NCBI GenBank assembly: GCA_016867965.1
Contig: VGIH01000009.1
Span: 1 to 32,292 of the forward strand
DNA length: 32,292 nt
Direction of reading: 5' to 3'
From: Betaproteobacteria bacterium
GTDB taxonomy: Bacteria > Pseudomonadota > Gammaproteobacteria > Burkholderiales > Burkholderiaceae
Part shown: positions 2,049-26,868 of the stretch, one piece after another
How positions within the stretch are numbered: the stretch's first letter is position 1
Layout of the letters: each line of letters starts with the position of its first letter
Made by a program: the position numbers and the translations under genes
The notes under the pieces: model-generated
Seen by the model: only the letters and a program-made list of their open reading frames with translations
What the model was told of the DNA's origin: nothing
The model's database searches: none

Positions 2049-4862
2049 ATGGTTTCGGATCAAGACGCCCTTTCTTTTCTTGAGAAAAACTCCGTCTATG
2101 CAAATCGCTGGCTAACTGCCCATGAGGATTGGCGAGATTGGTTAAGGGAGCGCATTCATACGCCGGTCGATACAAATCAGATTGATCAGCTGCTCTTACC
2201 AATAAGTCATGATCTGGACAAGGGGGTGCTCGATGAAGCAGCGCTCATGAGTCAGCTCCGGTTGAGTCGTCAGCAGTTGATGCTTTTGATTGGTTGCCGA
2301 GACCTCAATGGACTGGCGTCTTTATTAGAAGTTACCCAGGCGCTCAGCTATTTTGCAGAGCAAACCCTTGGGCTGGTAGTGCGCTATCTTCGCACGGATC
2401 TGCAAGAGCGATTTGGCCTACCTTGGGCTCGGACTGAAGACTACGAACTGCCACTCCTGATTGTCGGGATGGGGAAATTAGGCGGTCGTGAACTCAATCT
2501 TTCCTCGGATATTGATTTGATCTTCCTATATGAGGAAGAAGGCGAGACCCAACATGGGGCAAGCTCGATTTCAAATCACGAGTGGTTTACAAAGCTGGGT
2601 CGCCGCCTAATTAAAATCATCTCAGAGCATGATGCTTATGGATTTGTATTTCGAGTAGATATGCGCTTGCGTCCCAATGGGGATTCTGGCCCACTGGCTT
2701 GTAGTCTAGAAATGCTCGAAGAGTATTTGTTTGTGCAAGGGCGTGAATGGGAGCGTTACGCGTGGATTAAAGGCCGTATGATTTATCCGTCGATATCGCA
2801 CCCCGATTATGTTAGGTGCGAGAAGGGGCTTGAGCAAATCATTCGGCCATTTGTGTATCGCCGCCATTTAGATTACGGTGTGATTGCAGCGATTCGAGAG
2901 TTGCATGCACAAATTCAACGAGAAGCGGATAAGCGAAGCAATCAACGCAGTGGACGATCACGCGATATTAAGTTAGGTCGCGGTGGAATCCGTGAAATTG
3001 AGTTTTTAGCCCAGATGTTTCAATTAATGCGGGGTGGAACCGATCCGCGCTTACGAATTCGTCCAACGCTAGAGGTCTTAGATCGGCTTCAAGAAGGCGG
3101 GCTGATGAACGCAGAGGAAATTCAGACCCTTAAATCTACTTATGTGTTCTTAAGGCGCTTGGAACATCGCATCCAGATTTGGGAAGACCAGCAGACACAT
3201 TATTTACCTGAGCAGGATGATGCAAGAGCTCAGTTGGCGCAAGCCATGGCTGGACCGAATCAAGAGGGGCGTCTCGAAGAGTTTATGCAAACGCTCACTG
3301 AGCATCAAAATCAGGTAGCACGTTATTTTGAAAAGGCGTTTGCCTTGGACGAAAGCACCCGTTTACAAATTGATGCAAACGACGCAAGCTGGCAACCCAA
3401 TGCTGATTTATTCCCCAAGGCTAATGAGCGGTGGAGCGCCTGGCAGGAAAGCTCCCGTGCCAAATCACTGCCAGAGAAAAGTCGACTCACGATACGGAGC
3501 TTGTTAAAGAAGGCAGGGAATGATATCGAGGCTGATCATCCAGACGATGCGGATCATACCCTCTTGCGATTTTTTGATCTCCTTGAGGCAATTTGTCGTC
3601 GCAGCGCCTATCTATCGATATTGGCTGAGAACTCTAATGCCTTGCAAAAAGTCTTGATGCTTCTCAATGTCTCGCAGTGGGCCGCCCAATATTTAGCCAG
3701 ACATCCTCATTTATTGGACGATCTGTTATCGGCCAATGCGCAATCCGAACTAATTCACGATCCCGAGAGTTATTGGAGCAAAGTAAAGGTAAATCTTGAT
3801 CTACGTTTAGATGATGCCCTTGCCGATCAGGCGAGCCCTGATCATGCGATGGATATCCTACGGGTAACGCATCACACAGAAACCTTTTTAATTCTCTTAG
3901 CTGATTTAGGCATTGGTGCTCCCGAGGGTTTAAGCACCGAGCGGGTCAGTGATCGCTTATCCGCACTTGCGGATTTGATTTTGCAGGCAACCTATGAGCG
4001 TGTATGGCCATCGGTCGCCACCAAGTTTGGTTTGGATCCTCAACATAAACCCCCGTTTGCTGTAATTGCCTATGGCAAGTTGGGCGGCAAAGAATTGGGC
4101 TATGCCTCGGATCTCGATTTAGTGTTTTTGTATGACGCGTTACCAACAGACTATGCCGCACAAGAGATTTATTCCGTGCTTGGTAAACGCATGATTAATT
4201 GGTTAACCACCTTGACTGCCGCTGGAACTTTATTTGAGATTGATACTCGGCTGCGCCCAAATGGAGCCGCAGGATTTTTGGTGACCAGCCTTGACTCCTT
4301 TCGACGCTATCAATTGCGTGAGGGGGATAACGCCGCCTGGGTTTGGGAGCATCAAGCCATTTCTCGAGCACGCTTTGCTGCAGGCGACCCAAAGGTGGGG
4401 GCCCAATTTGAAGAGATACGTAAGGAAGTTCTTGCCCACGAACGAAATCAATCCGATCTCAAGCATGAAATTATTGAAATGCGCCATAAGGTCCATGCTG
4501 GTCATCCCAATTTATCCAATGATTTTGATCTTAAGCATGATCATGGCGGCATGGTCGATATTGAATTCATCGTCCAGTATTTGGTTTTGGCCTACGCTCG
4601 CAAGTACCCTGATTTATTGGGCAACTTAGGCAATATTGCACTTTTAGGTATTGCCGCAAAGCATCAGCTGATTTCTGAGATTGATGCGATTGAAATTGGT
4701 AATGCCTACCGCATGTTTCGGGCCCAACAACATCGATTGCGTCTCGATGGAGCAGAAAAAATCCGAGTATCCATTCACGAACACCCTGATTTTGCTGAAG
4801 CAAAGGCATGTGTGACTAAACTTTGGGAGACGGTATTTGGTGCGCCCTCGCAACCGATTTAA
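2049..4862 (+). CDS. glnE: Bifunctional glutamine synthetase adenylyltransferase/adenylyl-removing enzyme
   Basis: GlnE attaches AMP to, and removes it from, glutamine synthetase in response to the nitrogen state, with PII proteins as partners. The protein has 937 residues, close to the 946 of E. coli. Two nucleotidyltransferase domains are visible: the first has GMGKLGG at 140-146 and the acidic pair D154/D156 in SSDIDL; the second has YGKLGGKELGY at 675-685 and D688/D690 in ASDLDL. In known GlnE the N-terminal domain removes AMP and the C-terminal domain adds it; both carry their metal-binding aspartates here, so both activities should be intact. The ATG at 2049 has an AAGG too close to act as a good ribosome site, so the start is likely but not certain. 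Its 3' end faces recN with 6 bases between the stop codons and no clear terminator. Confidence 0.97.
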   Translation: MVSDQDALSFLEKNSVYANRWLTAHEDWRDWLRERIHTPVDTNQIDQLLLPISHDLDKGVLDEAALMSQLRLSRQQLMLLIGCRDLNGLASLLEVTQALSYFAEQTLGLVVRYLRTDLQERFGLPWARTEDYELPLLIVGMGKLGGRELNLSSDIDLIFLYEEEGETQHGASSISNHEWFTKLGRRLIKIISEHDAYGFVFRVDMRLRPNGDSGPLACSLEMLEEYLFVQGREWERYAWIKGRMIYPSISHPDYVRCEKGLEQIIRPFVYRRHLDYGVIAAIRELHAQIQREADKRSNQRSGRSRDIKLGRGGIREIEFLAQMFQLMRGGTDPRLRIRPTLEVLDRLQEGGLMNAEEIQTLKSTYVFLRRLEHRIQIWEDQQTHYLPEQDDARAQLAQAMAGPNQEGRLEEFMQTLTEHQNQVARYFEKAFALDESTRLQIDANDASWQPNADLFPKANERWSAWQESSRAKSLPEKSRLTIRSLLKKAGNDIEADHPDDADHTLLRFFDLLEAICRRSAYLSILAENSNALQKVLMLLNVSQWAAQYLARHPHLLDDLLSANAQSELIHDPESYWSKVKVNLDLRLDDALADQASPDHAMDILRVTHHTETFLILLADLGIGAPEGLSTERVSDRLSALADLILQATYERVWPSVATKFGLDPQHKPPFAVIAYGKLGGKELGYASDLDLVFLYDALPTDYAAQEIYSVLGKRMINWLTTLTAAGTLFEIDTRLRPNGAAGFLVTSLDSFRRYQLREGDNAAWVWEHQAISRARFAAGDPKVGAQFEEIRKEVLAHERNQSDLKHEIIEMRHKVHAGHPNLSNDFDLKHDHGGMVDIEFIVQYLVLAYARKYPDLLGNLGNIALLGIAAKHQLISEIDAIEIGNAYRMFRAQQHRLRLDGAEKIRVSIHEHPDFAEAKACVTKLWETVFGAPSQPI

Positions 4863-7491: not shown

Positions 7492-8505
7492 ATGGATGAT
7501 CGCTCAAAAGTTCTGCTAAAAACCCTAATCGAGAGATATATCGAAGAAGGCCAGCCAGTAGGCTCGCGGACCCTGTCACGCTTTTCAGGATTGGATCTTT
7601 CAGCAGCGACGATTCGGAATGTCATGGCCGATCTTGAGGACCTCGGACTAGTGACTAGCCCCCATACCTCAGCTGGACGAATTCCAACCCCACGGGGTTA
7701 TCGCCTCTTTGTCGATACGATGTTGACGATTCGGCCTCTCGAAGAGCTAGCTTCCAAGCAAGTTGAGCAATCGCTCTATCCAGACTCCCCTCAAAAGGTG
7801 ATTAGTTCTGCGGCACAGCTCTTATCCAATTTGACGCATTTTGCGGGTGTGGTCATGACCCCAAAGCGCTCACAGATCTTCAAGCATATTGAGTTTTTGC
7901 GCCTTGGAGAGGGCAAAATTTTGTTAATTTTGGTAACCCCCGAGGGGGATGTGCAAAACCGTATCTTGCCGACCAATCAAGATTACAGCCCTGCACAACT
8001 TACTGAGGCGAGTAATTTCATTAATACTCATTTTTCAGGAAAGAGTTTTTCCGAGGTTCGTAATCGCTTGCGGGCAGAACTGGATCATTTGCGTGGCGAC
8101 ATTGCTGGATTAATGGCGCTCGCCCTCGACAATGGTGTGAGTGACACGGGATTAAATCACCCGGATATGGTGATTTCTGGAGAGCGCCACTTACTCGATG
8201 TGGGTGAGTTGAGCTCCAATCTGAGCAAATTGCGCAAAATGTTCGATATGCTGGAGCAAAAATCCCTACTCATGCAATTACTCGATGTATCAAGCCATGC
8301 AGATGGCATACAGATCTTTATTGGCGGCGAGAGCGAGTTGTTGCCCTATGAGGATTTGGCGGTTATCAGTGCTCCGTATAGTGTGGATGGGCAAGTCGTC
8401 GGAACGCTGGGTGTGATTGGGCCCACTCGAATGGCGTATGATCGCGTGATTCCGATTGTGGATATCACCTCGAAGCTATTAAGCGGCGCCTTGAGCTCCC
8501 CTTGA
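7492..8505 (+). CDS. hrcA: Heat-inducible transcription repressor HrcA
   Basis: HrcA represses chaperone operons by binding the CIRCE inverted repeat, and its activity depends on GroEL in studied species. The 337 residues match the family (about 340). The N-terminal winged-helix region (about 1-75) contains the conserved [17 protein letters not shown] and the block around [16 protein letters not shown]. The C-terminal region carries the GAF-like dimerization/repressor segment ending in a conserved [15 protein letters not shown] motif. It heads the run hemH-grpE-dnaK-dnaJ. No CIRCE element is seen in this window, so its targets are probably elsewhere (groESL is typical in betaproteobacteria). 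No Shine-Dalgarno is visible before ATG 7492. Confidence 0.97.
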
Positions 8506-9617
8506 TGACTGGATCACTATTGAAAACGAACCCTCATTTAAGACCCTCTCGCACTGGAGTTTTACTGATTAATTTGGGTACGCCTGAGGCGCCCACGCGC
8601 GCAGCGGTGAAAACTTACCTCAAGCAATTTTTGTCGGATCCTCGGGTCGTTGAAATTCCACGCGTGGTGTGGTGGTTCATTTTGCACGGCATCATCTTGC
8701 CAATTCGTAGTGGCGCATCCGCCAAAAAATACGCCTCGATTTGGTTAAAAGACGGTTCTCCTCTTTTGGTTCATTCACAAGCTCAGGCTCAGGGTTTGCG
8801 GGATCGCTTTGCGGGCAAGGATTTGAATGTGATCGTGGATCTGGCGATGCGTTACGGCAAACCATCCATTCCTGAAGTACTCAAACGTTTTCAGGAAGCA
8901 AATGTTGAGCGTCTATTAGTATTACCTTTGTATCCTCAATATTCAGCGACCACGAGCGCCTCTAGTTTTGATGAGGTGTTCTCAGTGCTTAAAACGTGGC
9001 GCAATCAACCGGAACTGCGAATCGTGAAGCACTACCATGATCACGGCTCTTACATTGAGTCCCTACGTCAGCAGATTGAAGCCTACTGGGCTCAACATGG
9101 TCGACCCGATTTTTCAAAGGGCGCTAAGCTCATCATGTCGTTTCATGGCCTGCCCAAACGAAATTTGATGCAAGGCGATCCTTACCATTGCGAATGCTTG
9201 AAGTCAGGTCGATTATTGGGCGAGGCACTTGGGTTGGAGCCAGACCATTACCGGGTGACGTTTCAGTCCCGTTTTGGTCGCGCAGAGTGGTTAAAGCCCT
9301 ATACCGCATTGACGATTGAGGAGCTTGGAAAAGCGGGTTGCCCTCAAATTGATATTGTTTGCCCAGGCTTTCCTGCAGACTGTCTAGAGACTTTGGAGGA
9401 AATTGCCATGGAGGGTCAGGAAATTTTTCATGAGCATGGTGGTGCAGAGTATCGGTATATCCCATGCTTAAATGACGATACTAATTTCATATCCGCATTG
9501 CATGCAATTGCCTTAGAGCATATGCATGGTTGGTCTAAAGAGCTTGAGTCCCCTGCAGTTCTAGACTTGCGTGATCAGCGTGCTCAGGCTGCGGAGGCCG
9601 CGATTACCACTGGGTAA
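8505..9617 (+). CDS. hemH: Ferrochelatase
   Basis: HemH inserts ferrous iron into protoporphyrin IX, the last step of protoheme synthesis. From ATG 8505 the protein has 370 residues. It has the family start block GVLLINLGTPEAP, the catalytic histidine H214 in SFHGLPKR, the FQSRFGRAEWLKPYT segment, and the PGFPADCLETLEE block (C293 to E299) with the acidic metal-side residues. The ATG overlaps the hrcA stop as TGATG, so translation is probably coupled; a TTG one codon upstream is possible but less likely. A DPYHCEC segment after the active site contains two cysteines; they lie away from the C-terminus where some ferrochelatases bind a cluster, so I do not infer a cluster. Confidence 0.96.
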   Translation: MTGSLLKTNPHLRPSRTGVLLINLGTPEAPTRAAVKTYLKQFLSDPRVVEIPRVVWWFILHGIILPIRSGASAKKYASIWLKDGSPLLVHSQAQAQGLRDRFAGKDLNVIVDLAMRYGKPSIPEVLKRFQEANVERLLVLPLYPQYSATTSASSFDEVFSVLKTWRNQPELRIVKHYHDHGSYIESLRQQIEAYWAQHGRPDFSKGAKLIMSFHGLPKRNLMQGDPYHCECLKSGRLLGEALGLEPDHYRVTFQSRFGRAEWLKPYTALTIEELGKAGCPQIDIVCPGFPADCLETLEEIAMEGQEIFHEHGGAEYRYIPCLNDDTNFISALHAIALEHMHGWSKELESPAVLDLRDQRAQAAEAAITTG

Positions 9618-10243: not shown

Positions 10244-10272
10244 CTTGAAATTGCCCAAGTTGTCCCCACCTA
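10244..10272 (+). promoter_or_regulatory. Sigma-32 (RpoH) heat-shock promoter for dnaK
   Basis: CTTGAAA at 10244-10250, 13-base spacer, CCCCACCTA at 10264-10272: a second near-consensus sigma-32 promoter, in the 102-base gap between grpE and dnaK. The expected start near 10279 leaves a leader of about 35 bases before the dnaK ATG. It shows dnaK(J) can be transcribed separately from grpE under heat stress. Confidence 0.88.
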
Positions 10273-10313
10273 ATCATTATTTGAAACAACCCTCACCATT
10301 ATTTGGAGCCATT

Positions 10314-12242
10314 ATGGGAAAGATTATTGGAATTGACTTAGGAACCACAAACTCCTGCGTCGCTGTGATTGAGAACAACGCCCCGAAGGTCATTGAAAAC
10401 GCAGAGGGTGCTAGAACGACCCCTTCCATCATTGCGTATATGGAAGACGGGGAAGTATTGGTTGGCGCACCCGCAAAGCGGCAATCCGTTACTAATCCTA
10501 AAAATACGATCTATGCCGTTAAGCGCTTAATTGGTCGTAAGTTTACTGATGCGGAAGTTCAAAAAGATATTGGTTTGATGCCCTATAGCATTATTGCTGC
10601 AGATAACGGCGATGCCTGGGTATCAGTACGCGATAAAAAAATCGCCCCTCAGCAGGTATCGGCTGAAGTCTTGCGCAAAATGAAAAAGACTGCCGAAGAT
10701 TATTTGGGCGAAGAGGTCACCGAGGCTGTAATCACAGTGCCCGCTTACTTTAATGATAGTCAGCGTCAAGCCACGAAAGACGCCGGCCGAATTGCTGGTC
10801 TGGAGGTCAAGCGCATTATTAATGAGCCTACTGCTGCTGCTTTGGCATTTGGATTAGACAAGCAAGATAAGACCGATCGCAAGATTGCTGTTTATGACCT
10901 AGGTGGCGGTACTTTCGACGTTTCGATTATTGAAATCGCAAACGTGGATGGAGAAAAACAATTTGAAGTGTTATCTACGAATGGCGATACCTTTTTAGGC
11001 GGCGAAGACTTTGACCAACGCATCATTGATTGGATCATTGCCGAGTTCAAGAAAGAGCAAGGCGTTGATTTGAGTAAAGATGTCTTAGCTTTACAACGGT
11101 TAAAAGATGCTGCTGAGAAAGCTAAGATCGAGTTATCTTCTTCCCAACAAACAGAAATCAACTTGCCTTATGTAACAGCGGATGCAAGTGGTCCCAAGCA
11201 TTTGAACTTGAAATTAACCCGCTCCAAATTAGAGTCATTGGTTGAAGAGTTGATTACCCGTACCATGGGCCCATGCCAGGTTGCGATGAAAGATGCTGGT
11301 GTATCAGCATCCGATATTGATGATGTCATCTTGGTGGGTGGTCAAACTCGCATGCCAAAAGTACAAGAGCAGGTCAAGGCCATTTTTGGTAAGGAACCAC
11401 GTAAAGATGTTAATCCCGACGAGGCAGTTGCTGTTGGCGCTGCGATTCAGGGATCTGTATTAGCCGGTGATCGCAAGGATGTCTTGTTGCTTGATGTGAC
11501 CCCCTTATCTCTGGGTATTGAGACCTTGGGCGGCGTGATGACCAAGATGATTCTTAAAAATACAACGATTCCGACCAAGCACGCTCAAGTGTTTTCAACG
11601 GCTGAAGACAATCAGCCAGCGGTCACTATTAAGTGCTTCCAAGGTGAGCGTGAGATGGCCAGTGCTAATAAATTGCTAGGTGAGTTTAATTTGGAAGGTA
11701 TCCCGCCATCACCCCGTGGTTTGCCACAAATTGAGGTGACCTTTGATATCGATGCCAACGGAATCTTGCATGTAACCGCTAAAGATAAAGCGTCTGGCAA
11801 AGAGAACAAGATTACGATCAAGGCAAACTCAGGTCTTTCTGAAGATGAAATTCAGCGGATGGTGAAGGATGCCGAAGCCAATGCTGAGGAAGATCGTAAA
11901 TTACTTGAACTGGTCACCGTCCGAAATGCAGCGGATGCCTTAGCGCACTCTACCAAGAAGGCGCTCGATGAGCATGGCGCGAGTCTTGATGCGTCCGAGA
12001 AGAGTGCAATTGAATCGGCATTGAAAGAGCTCGAGGAGGCCATTAAAGGAAGTGATAAGGCCGCGATTGAGGCAAAGACTGAGGCGTTAGCAAAGGCTAG
12101 TCAGAAGCTTGGTGAGAAAGCGTATGCTGCGGAGCAAGCAAAGGCTAATCCTGGTAATGCAAATCCAGCAGCTGAAAAAAAGGCCAATAACGATGCGGAA
12201 GTGGTTGATGCTGACTTTAAGGAAGTAAATGATAAGAAGTAA
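10314..12242 (+). CDS. dnaK: Chaperone protein DnaK (Hsp70)
   Basis: DnaK is the ATP-driven Hsp70 chaperone working with DnaJ and GrpE in the cytoplasm. From ATG 10314 the protein has 642 residues (638 in E. coli). The ATPase domain opens with [14 protein letters not shown] and shows [13 protein letters not shown] and [13 protein letters not shown]; the linker [19 protein letters not shown] leads to the substrate-binding domain and helical lid, and the tail ends in the acidic conserved [10 protein letters not shown] motif. A GGAG ribosome site at 10304-10307 supports this start. An in-frame TTG at 10245 would extend the protein by 23 residues but lies inside the sigma-32 -35 box and lacks conservation. 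Confidence 0.98.
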
Positions 12243-12271
12243 TACGTAAAAAAGAATGATGCAAATTGGTG

Positions 12272-12290
12272 AGTCGGCCTTGTGCCGACT
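12272..12290 (+). other. Hairpin in the dnaK-dnaJ gap
   Basis: AGTCGGC (12272-12278) pairs perfectly with GCCGACT (12284-12290) around a 5-base loop. A TTTT tract follows only six bases later and is short, so this could be a leaky terminator or an RNA-processing/stability element that lowers dnaJ relative to dnaK. The structure is seen; the role is inferred. Confidence 0.5.
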
Positions 12291-12322
12291 TCGCCTTTTG
12301 GGCAAAGAAAAAGGAATGGGTT

Positions 12323-13441
12323 GTGGCTACTGGTAAACGCGATTTTTATGAAGTACTTGGTGTTGGTAAAAATGCCAGCGATGAAGACCTTAAAAAGGCT
12401 TATCGCAAATTGGCCATGAAATACCATCCGGACCGCAACCTGGATAATCCATCAGCAGAAGCAAAGTTCAAGGAGGCTAAAGAAGCCTACGAGACTCTGG
12501 CGGACCCACAAAAGCGCAACGCCTACGATCAGTTCGGCCATGCCGGAGTGGATCCTAGTATGGGTGGTTTTGGAGGCGCTGCTGGTGGCTTTGCAGACGC
12601 CTTTGGTGACATTTTTGGTGACATCTTTGGTCAGGGTAGAAGCGCTGGACCCCAGGTTTATAAAGGTGCCGACTTGCGCTACAACATGGAAATTACCCTC
12701 GAGCAGGCTGCTGAGGGTTACACCACCCAAATTCGAGTGCCTAGCTGGAGTAATTGCAAAACCTGTAGTGGTTCTGGTGCGGAGCCCGGGTCAAAGATTG
12801 AGGAATGCCTAACTTGCGATGGCCGTGGCCAAGTTCGGATTGCTCAGGGGTTTTTCTCAATGCAACAAACGTGTCCGAAGTGTCGTGGCACTGGTCAATA
12901 CATACCGAAGCCTTGCAAGACCTGCCAAGGAAGTGGCAAGCTGAAAGAGCAAAAGACCCTTGAAATTAAGATCCCAGCCGGTATTGATGATGGTACGCGC
13001 GTGCGCTCAGTCGGCAACGGCGAGCCCGGTATTAACGGCGGCCCTTCGGGCGACCTTTATGTCGAAGTACATGTCAAAGAGCATCCAGTATTTGAGCGCG
13101 ATGGAAGCGATTTGCATGTTCAAATGCCGATTTCATTTGCGACCGCCACTTTGGGCGGTGATATTGAAGTTCCAACACTCGGGGGTCGGGTTGAGTTAAC
13201 GATTCCTGAAGGAACTCAAACCGGCAAAACCTTTCGGTTGCGTAGTAAAGGAATCAAGCAATTACGCTCTGCACTAATGGGCGATTTGTACGTGCATGTC
13301 TTACTCGAGACCCCGGTAAAGTTATCGGAAGAGCAAAAATCATTACTTTCTCAATTTGATGAGTCGCTTCGAAGTGGTGGTAAAAAACACAGCCCCCAAC
13401 AAGAGAGTTGGTTTGATCGTGTAAAAAGTTTTTTTAATTAA
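12323..13441 (+). CDS. dnaJ: Chaperone protein DnaJ (Hsp40)
   Basis: DnaJ delivers substrates to DnaK and stimulates its ATPase. From GTG 12323 the protein has 372 residues (376 in E. coli). It has the J domain with HPD at 35-37, a Gly/Phe region containing a repeated GDIF unit, four zinc-binding CxxCxGxG modules ([32 protein letters not shown]), and the C-terminal substrate-binding domains. The GTG is preceded by AAGGA at 12311-12315 with a 7-base spacing, which decides the start; an upstream ATG at 12266 is inside the intergenic hairpin region and would add non-conserved residues. The 3' end overlaps the convergent panB by four bases. Confidence 0.96.
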
Positions 13442-14253
13442 GAGGCAAAGCAGTGTTCGGGTCCGGGAAATTTTCCGGACTTGACTTCACGAACATAGGC
13501 TTTAATCGCCGCCTCAATCGAGCTGCTACCGGCCATAAAGTCTTTCACAAACTTTGGTGCTTTGCCTGAACTGATTCCCAGTAAATCTTGAAGGACTAAC
13601 ACTTGCCCTGAGCAATCAGGTCCAGCACCAATCCCAATCGTGGGGATGTGGAGTGATTGAGTAATTTTTTCTCCGAGCGCTGATGGGATCGCCTCTAAAA
13701 CGAGCATTTGAGCGCCTGCAGCCTGGCAAGCATGGGCTTGATCAAACATCAGAGCGCCCGCATCTTTTGACTTGCCTTGGACCTTATAACCGCCCAGCAA
13801 GTGCACAGACTGAGGCAAAAGTCCCAAGTGAGCACAAACTGGAACACTGCGCTCAACTAGAAATTGAATGATATCGACCTGCCAATCACCGCCTTCAAGC
13901 TTCACCATGTCAGCACCTGCGCGCATCAGTTCGGCAGCTGATTCCAATGCTTGTACTGGATCTCCATAACTCGCAAATGGTAGGTCGGCAACCAAGAAAG
14001 CATGGTGATTAGCACGGGCAACGCACTTCGTGTGATAAGCCATTTCTTCTACGGTAACCGGTGTAGTACTACTATGACCTTGGATCACATTACCCAGTGA
14101 GTCGCCAATCAAAATTACTTCAACTCCGCAGCGATTGAGAAGCGTACTCATAGTTGAGTCATATGCAGTTAGCACAGTAATCTTTTCGCCATCCGCATGC
14201 ATGGCTAATAACTTCGTAATCGTAATTAGCTTATCGCCTTGTAAATAACTCAT
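13438..14253 (-). CDS. panB: 3-methyl-2-oxobutanoate hydroxymethyltransferase
   Basis: PanB makes ketopantoate from alpha-ketoisovalerate and methylenetetrahydrofolate, the first committed step to pantothenate and coenzyme A. The 271 residues are close to the usual 264. Visible signatures are [29 protein letters not shown] with the metal-binding aspartate, the MVKLEGG block, [22 protein letters not shown], and [17 protein letters not shown]. It is the last gene of a minus-strand run, 15 bases after folK; folate (FolK) and pantothenate genes are often neighbours. No clear Shine-Dalgarno is seen before ATG 14253, but the N-terminus aligns with betaproteobacterial PanB (start MSYLQ). Confidence 0.96.
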
Positions 14254-24797: not shown

Positions 24798-26027
24798 ATG
24801 TCTGAGATTAAAAAAGCAGTATTGGCCTATTCCGGTGGCCTCGATACCAGCGTGATTTTGAAGTGGCTTCAAGATACTTATGGCTGTGAGATTGTCACCT
24901 TTACAGCCGACTTGGGTCAAGGCGAGGAGCTTGAGCCCGCGCGAGCCAAAGCACTACAGTTTGGAATTAAGCCTGAGCACATCTTTATTGATGATCTGCG
25001 TGAAGAGTTTGTGTGCGACTTTGTGTTTCCAATGTTTAGGGCAAACACAATTTATGAGGGTGAATATTTGCTAGGCACATCGATCGCCCGCCCTTTAATC
25101 GCAAAACGTCAGATTGAGATTGCACGTCAGGTAGGGGCAGATGCGGTGTCTCATGGCGCTACTGGCAAAGGCAACGACCAGGTGCGTTTTGAGCTTGGTT
25201 ACTACGCCCTTGAGCCTGGAATTAAAGTGATTGCTCCATGGCGTGAGTGGGATTTACTGTCTCGAGAAAAATTACTGGCCTATGCTGAAAAACACGGTAT
25301 CCCTGTGGAAATGAAGCACAAGCAAGGGGGCGCGCCTTATTCGATGGATGCCAATCTATTGCACATTAGCTTTGAGGGTAGGCATCTCGAGAATCCAAAC
25401 GCAGAAGCTGAGGAAGCGATGTGGCGCTGGACCGTTTCCCCAGAGAAGGCTCCTGATCAAGCGCAAGTGATTGAAATCGAATTTAAGCAAGGTGATCCAG
25501 TGGCGATCAATGGAAAGTCTTTGAAACCACACGAGCTGCTGGCCGAGTTAAATCGTTTGGGCGGTGCTCACGGCATTGGCAGACTGGATCTGGTCGAGAA
25601 TCGCTTTGTTGGAATGAAGAGCCGGGGTTGCTATGAGACGCCTGGCGGAACTATTTTGCTCAAAGCGCATCGTGCGGTTGAGAGCATTACCTTAGACCGT
25701 GAAGTCGCTCATCTCAAAGATGATCTGATGCCACGCTATGCAGCTCTGATTTATAACGGCTATTGGTGGTCGCCTGAGCGCTTAGCATTGCAGACCCTAA
25801 TTGACCATACTCAAAAGACTGTGAACGGGGTTGTGCGTCTCAAGTTGTACAAAGGTTCGGTTTCTGTGTTGGCACGCGATTCAGCCAATACTTTATTTGA
25901 CCAAAATATTGCAACCTTTGATGATGATGGTGGAGCATATAACCAAGCTGATGCTGGTGGCTTTATTAAACTCAATGCATTGCGGATGCGAATTGCTGAA
26001 ATTGCAAAACGTAAACGCGCAAAATAA
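24798..26027 (+). CDS. argG: Argininosuccinate synthase
   Basis: ArgG joins citrulline and aspartate, the step after ArgF. The 409 residues belong to the shorter ArgG type (about 400) rather than the 447-residue E. coli type. The ATP-binding PP-loop is AYSGGLDTS at 10-18; other blocks are [10 protein letters not shown], the [19 protein letters not shown] segment, [15 protein letters not shown], the [11 protein letters not shown] and [17 protein letters not shown] blocks, and GYWWSPER. It lies 53 bases after argF and 24 bases before the ppnP remnant, all on one strand, suggesting a single transcript. Confidence 0.97.
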
Positions 26028-26051: not shown

Positions 26052-26357
26052 ATGCAGTTTGATGGCGTTTCTGTTAGTAAAAAAGCAAATGTATATTTTG
26101 ATGGCAAGTGTGTATCCCATACCGTTACATTACCGGATGGGGTCCGTAAATCAGTCGGGGTGATTTTGCCCAGCACCTTGCGCTTTGATCTCAGCACCAA
26201 AGAGGTGGTGGAAGTCGTTGAGGGCACAGCGCATGTCAGCATCAACGGTCAGGCAGAACGCACTTTTACTGCAGGGTAATCTTGGACCGTTGAGTCCGGT
26301 GGATATTTTGTGATTCGAGCGGAGCAACCGGTGCATTACGTGTGTCACTTTGGCTAG
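26052..26357 (+). pseudogene. ppnP: Pyrimidine/purine nucleoside phosphorylase gene with an in-frame stop
   Basis: PpnP (formerly YaiE, DUF1255) is a small cupin-fold enzyme that cleaves nucleosides with phosphate; members have about 95-105 residues. Here the frame from ATG 26052, preceded by a good GGAAG, reads FDGVSVSKKANVYFDGKCVSHTV and on to AERTFTAG, then meets TAA at 26277-26279 (codon 76). Past it the same frame continues with SWTVESGGYFVIRAEQPVHY and VCHFG and ends in TAG at 26355-26357. That tail is the normal PpnP C-terminus, so one nonsense codon splits an otherwise intact 101-codon gene. A CAA or GAA codon at this place would restore it (family members read GES or GQS here). The 75-residue product lacks the last strands of the cupin barrel and is probably inactive. 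A sequencing error is the main alternative. Confidence 0.88.
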
Positions 26358-26360
26358 TCA

Positions 26361-26804
26361 CTAACGTTTTGGTAAACCTGTAATTACGGTACCAGGCCCA
26401 AGGGCTCGTTGTGTAAACCATTTCTGATTCATTTCTAGAGCAAATCGGACCGGCCCTCGAGGACAGTGATTATTTTGGGTTTCTGGCTCCATATCAGAGA
26501 GATTCACAATCTTGCCATCATCATCGATAAAAGCGATGGTCAGTGGTAATTTTGTGTTGCGCATCCAAAAGCAATGAATGGCTTTTTCTGGAAAGACGAA
26601 GAGCATTCCAGTATTTGTCGGCATAAACGTTCGGTACATTAAGCCAGTTTGTCGGGCTGCAGGTGTATCGGCGAGTTCGGCCTCGATCCGGTACATTCCA
26701 GCCTTGAGTTCAATGATCGGCAGGAAGGGGCCTTGAGCGGCGGCATTTTCTGTGAGGATGAATAAAAAAGAAGCCGCCAGAATAGTCAAGTATTTGTGGA
26801 TCAT
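26361..26804 (-). CDS. Exported DUF192 domain protein
   Basis: From ATG 26804 the protein has 147 residues: a signal-peptide-like start MIHKYLTILAASFLFILTE ending around NAAAQ (about residue 24), then a DUF192 domain with MYRIEAELADTPAARQTGLM, the RTFMPTNTGMLFVFPE block, CFWMRNTKLPLTIAFID and the acidic IVNLSDMEPET. DUF192 is a small conserved domain of unknown function, usually secreted or periplasmic. Two earlier in-frame ATGs (26831, 26858) would bury the signal peptide, so 26804 is preferred, though none has a strong ribosome site. It is convergent with the broken ppnP, three bases apart, and divergent from icd with 91 bases between the starts. Confidence 0.85.
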   Translation of the reverse strand: MIHKYLTILAASFLFILTENAAAQGPFLPIIELKAGMYRIEAELADTPAARQTGLMYRTFMPTNTGMLFVFPEKAIHCFWMRNTKLPLTIAFIDDDGKIVNLSDMEPETQNNHCPRGPVRFALEMNQKWFTQRALGPGTVITGLPKR

Positions 26805-26868
26805 TGGGCTTGGGGAATTAAAATAGTGCATTTTCAGGAATAGGCGGTTTTGCCTCATGCGAAAATAC

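Follow-up and report, generated by a model that had tools for sequence, protein, structure and literature searches.

The ppnP gene in the draft genome (G000) of a freshwater Polynucleobacter bacterium is interrupted at codon 76 by an in-frame TAA that arose by a lone substitution, and this stop is slightly more likely to be an artefact, or an allele of a minority strain, than a fixed gene loss; we give this reading a probability of about one half (0.49). The gene lies in a stretch of 32,292 nucleotides (the window), which is positions 1-32292 of contig C9. The draft has 1,978,166 bases in 227 contigs and is 95.8% complete; its main reference is a complete Polynucleobacter genome of 1,915,272 bases (G122). 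In the reading we favour, a single C-to-T transition converted the conserved glutamine codon at position 76 to TAA in a ppnP that is normal in other respects, translation of the sequence as written would end after 75 of 101 residues, and the last quarter or so of a small fold would be lost. Because of this loss, the truncated 75-residue PpnP is most likely inactive. The stop would be one of a number of isolated nonsense codons scattered through the draft alongside other private changes from C/G to A/T, and its origin would lie in the sample or the assembly: a consensus called at low coverage, a damaged or amplified template, or a minority strain.

The ppnP frame is on the forward strand (26052-26357). 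It opens with an ATG at 26052, directly downstream of a GGAAG stretch that resembles a ribosome binding site, runs through 75 intact codons (26052-26276) that align with those of relatives, meets the TAA at 26277-26279, where relatives align a glutamine, and continues in the same frame through 25 C-terminal codons to the normal stop (26280-26357, the TAG itself at 26355-26357), which gives a length of 101 codons to the last stop. The first 75 residues cover positions 1-62 of the 92 in the PF06865 profile (E=5e-18, 65.7 bits), and the 25-residue tail on its own has no match in Pfam. Read across the stop, the frame matches the whole profile (1-92) at 88.7 bits, above the curated cut-off of 25, with one TAA inside, so the copy lacks the uninterrupted open frame expected of a PpnP. 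The frame reading and the profile match bear out what the earlier note had described, a normal PpnP start, a TAA at codon 76 and a same-frame C-terminus reaching 26355, and the GGAAG stretch agrees with its intact ribosome site. In sequence family, length and neighbourhood the gene fits the PpnP family of pyrimidine/purine nucleoside phosphorylases (PF06865; UPF0345 in older records, also known as YaiE). The phosphorylase activity is predicted here from the names of the family and its structures. Solved PpnP structures align to residues 11-100 of an intact relative, or to 2-100 or 10-100 in the case of two of them.

Both neighbours of ppnP are intact. Upstream lies argG, encoding argininosuccinate synthase (24798-26027, forward strand; PF00764/PF20979), which is 98.8% identical in G122, and downstream a convergent DUF192 (COG1430) gene (26361-26858, reverse strand; PF02643, E=6.9e-31), which is 97% identical. 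The three genes stand together in all six relatives that have all of them at the locus (G017, G023, G105, G119, G024, G122), and this conserved grouping indicates that the ppnP frame is not a chance ORF. Elsewhere in the window, most genes are closer to G122 than are glnE (2049-4862, 89.5%) and panB (13441-14253, 85.2%), which look, judging by these identities, as if a foreign allele had been taken up by one lineage. A search of the window for Rfam elements gave none at the gathering threshold. Three rows of the window alignment (8502-9617, 10245-12242 and 12266-13441) are misaligned for at least one relative, and the totals of that alignment were left unused.

Among the best 80 of 497 matches to the N-terminal part of ppnP, the closest come from Polynucleobacter and from Burkholderiaceae or betaproteobacterial assemblies; of the copies compared, those of G122 (94.7% identity), G085 (90%), G167 (88%), G165 (86%) and G166 (85%) resemble the draft copy most. 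Of 186 genomes in the genus, 171 have a PF06865 match. An interior ppnP stop occurs only in G000, both in a search of 61 genomes (46 with a match) and among the matches listed in the wider search of the 186. At the DNA level we compared 104 near-full-length copies that aligned without gaps and comprise 80 distinct sequences, and of the 59 distinct sequences with more than 70% identity (G000 included) only that of G000 has a stop at codon 76; the same is seen in an alignment with G122, G085, G167 and G165. Residue 76 is glutamine in 73 of 77 distinct relatives, glutamate in three and serine in one. The draft and G122 copies align without a gap and are 94.8% identical across all 306 bases, with the final stop counted, and 94.7% identical across the first 300. 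Since the G122 copy is intact and relatives have glutamine at this residue, the stop is a single C-to-T transition, one of the two changes that the earlier note had proposed; the note had also seen no frameshift, with which the gapless alignment agrees. G000 ppnP thus carries a disabling change relative to intact orthologues, of the kind that defines a pseudogene by nonsense. The possibility that relatives all end at the same place does not hold: the copies read are full length, save those that are frameshifted or truncated where a contig ends, and a truncation common to relatives was seen neither in the 61-genome search nor among the genus matches listed nor in the DNA alignment.

Compared with seven relatives, the draft copy has two private amino-acid changes, M53V and A82S, the latter being the only one in the 25-codon tail. 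The G122 copy has its own, T24N and V25I. As the 25 codons past the TAA show no other damage, the stop, if real, is recent.

A true recent loss, in which the nonsense codon has become fixed in the lineage, PpnP is inactive and decay of the gene has begun, has somewhat less than an even chance. It is plausible because four complete Polynucleobacter genomes carry frameshifted copies, broken near residue 15 (G119), residues 22-30 (G105), residues 40-47 (G017) and residue 57 (G023), each beside an intact argG. These sequences point to repeated loss of ppnP within the genus. G101 was rejected as a further broken copy and left uncounted, since its two parts sit at two contig ends. The change M53V also speaks for a true loss, at a site that is methionine in 77 of 77 relatives and valine in G000. 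Against it, a PF06865 match is retained in 143 of the 144 genomes of the genus with a completeness of 90% or more and a contamination of 5% or less, although this count includes frame-broken copies. The frame-broken relatives share with G000 the gene, the locus, the adjoining argG and the inactivation, but they have frameshifts at four other places where G000 has one substitution. They also differ in context: the sampled genome of G023 is widely decayed and that of G000 is not, while G017, G105 and G119 were examined at the ppnP locus only. The complete genome of G017 has 1,550,368 bases. Passages of PMC5018217 put the genome of the endosymbiont STIR1 at 1.56 Mb and describe many pseudogenes in its species, P. 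necessarius.

We scanned 412 kb of G000 (19 stretches of 20 kb and the window) for stops against the ORFs of six relatives and of the draft G079. In the 240,147 nt covered by relatives, four isolated nonsense codons were accepted in open conserved frames and no frame change was found. Apart from ppnP, they affect a gene for a DnaJ-domain protein (C4 near 4712; glutamine to stop at residue 131; PF00226 and PF01556 in a relative), which we take to be CbpA-like, an amino-acid permease gene close to a contig end (C17 near 153; tryptophan to stop at residue 401; PF00324 in a relative) and a gene for a GST-like protein (C20 near 8359; glutamate to stop at residue 69; PF02798 in G122). Because ppnP was the seed of the scan, only three of the four are independent finds. 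In searches of eight other genomes, the permease has no stop in the seven with a match and the DnaJ-domain gene none in the six with a match, against one each in G000. For the GST-like gene, stops were counted in most genomes searched; in the three relatives read (G122, G165, G085) these lie at the gene end, and the interior stop is missing. Each of the four nonsense codons is a TAA or a TAG, and the frame beyond it is intact; extrapolation to the entire draft gives about 30 such stops.

The same scan accepted no interior stop in 286,105 nt of G122, in 193,076 nt of G024, in about 37 kb each of G085, G167 and G165, or in the small sample of 71,836 nt from the draft G079. Frame changes were absent from G024, G079, G085, G167 and G165, and G122 had one, in an ORF of 111 residues. 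In G023, whose ppnP is frameshifted, the scan picked up numerous stops as well as 10 sites of frame change, so it is able to see decay. The raw lists held 16 stop sites for G000, 29 for G122, 14 for G024, 29 for G023, 3 for G079, 9 for G085, 21 for G167 and 7 for G165, of which four were accepted in G000 and none in G122, G024, G079, G085, G167 and G165, acceptance being the author's judgement of the alignments with no programmed rule. The rows dropped were taken for short ORFs of the antisense or shadow kind, or for ORFs in which the first start codon precedes the true one, and what we take to be accB, metK, msrA, typA and a patatin-like gene were among them. The three further isolated nonsense codons of G000, unaccompanied by frameshifts, do not resemble the decay of G023, and this difference in the pattern of nonsense and frame changes counts against a true loss (pooled hypergeometric P=0.043, with ten sites of frame change and about six genes with nonsense codons counted by eye for G023).

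Private substitutions were compared between one draft (G000) and one complete genome (G122) in 99 genes, or 28,684 codons, for which G122 and at least one outgroup were available; only ORFs of at least 120 codons were used, from codon 26 onward and without the last 8, and ppnP was too short to be included. Private nonsynonymous and synonymous changes stand at 207:973 in G000 and 168:1117 in G122 (p=0.0024). Only four classes carry the nonsynonymous excess, C>T, G>A, C>A and G>T, which make up 108 of the 207 changes in G000 and 58 of the 168 in G122 (p=0.0008). The remaining classes pooled hold 99 changes in G000 where 95.8 are expected; synonymous changes show no shift toward the C/G-to-A/T classes (p=0.89). 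The 26 genes with close outgroups gave ratios of 51:173 (G000) and 62:375 (G122, p=0.006). All four nonsense changes of G000 belong to the same four classes. Template damage, amplification or consensus errors at thin coverage would look like this excess, and so, too, would fresh mutations.

If the whole excess consisted of errors, about 5.0 nonsense changes would be expected in the 99 genes and about 14 in the 240 kb, predictions that are loose because the bootstrap interval of the difference in N/S is wide (0.009-0.118). There was no nonsense change among the 207 private nonsynonymous changes of G000 in the 99 genes (P=0.0066), and only four were accepted in the 240 kb (P=0.0018). This shortfall, which favours a true loss, suggests that a large part of the excess consists of real changes that have passed through selection, and the tie between the ppnP stop and the excess is loose.

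An artefact or an unfixed allele is thus supported by four isolated nonsense codons without any frame change in the G000 sample, set against the frame changes of G023, and opposed by the lack of nonsense among the private nonsynonymous changes, by the repeated loss of ppnP in the genus and by the one frame change in G122 itself. Given the three sibling nonsense codons and the C/G-to-A/T excess, the ppnP stop may be artefactual or unfixed, and we lean slightly to this side. The ordinary nonsense alleles and consensus errors of draft genomes are isolated single substitutions to a stop in conserved genes, of the C/G-to-A/T kind and free of frameshifts, as in G000, and we found nothing that distinguishes the ppnP stop from them. 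The two readings are close in likelihood, and the event is an ordinary one either way. The possible ongoing loss raised in the earlier note accordingly stays plausible in view of the four frameshifted relatives, but the three sibling stops allow that this stop is an artefact or unfixed. Of the mutation, sequencing error and readthrough that the note had offered, a single recent substitution at a glutamine codon stands, whereas nothing supports readthrough.

That the TAA is read through or suppressed, by an ochre suppressor tRNA or by its context, with full-length PpnP being made, is very improbable. All four nonsense codons of G000 are of a kind that an ochre suppressor could read, with intact frames beyond, and the tRNA set of the draft is incomplete: an Rfam search found 32 tRNA genes, against 39 in G122, and no tRNA-Tyr is among them, so some tRNA genes are missing from the assembly. 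However, none of these 32, all of them named by ARAGORN, has a stop anticodon or is a suppressor, the absence of TGA among the four stops has a chance expectation of 34%, and a TAA followed by T, as here, is an efficient terminator. Conservation of the stop, as readthrough would lead one to expect, was not seen in any relative read, including the 46 genomes with a match among the 61 searched. The narrower idea that the lineage tolerates scattered TAA and TAG codons through an ochre-type suppressor tRNA encoded in the unassembled part of the genome is less probable still; if it were true, all four interrupted genes (ppnP and those for the DnaJ-domain protein, the permease and the GST-like protein) would still yield full-length products. 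It is just as hard to credit that the truncated 75-residue protein still functions as a short PpnP, or that the two halves of the frame act together as a split protein. The N-terminal 75 residues do match Pfam by themselves, but none of the relatives read stops in frame at this point, roughly one quarter of the structurally aligned fold is missing, and the first in-frame start within the tail is a GTG at its eleventh codon. An alternative genetic code can be set aside by inference, as ordinary stops close the genes of the window and only a few interior stops were accepted.

By itself, the G000 stop means little: it is another inactivated or misread copy of a salvage enzyme. It does counsel caution, in that an isolated stop in a draft genome should be weighed against the other stops and private changes of that genome before a gene loss is claimed. 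For the genus, the finding of ppnP broken by a frameshift in four complete genomes, at a different place in each and always beside an intact argG, suggests that the gene is readily dispensable in Polynucleobacter.
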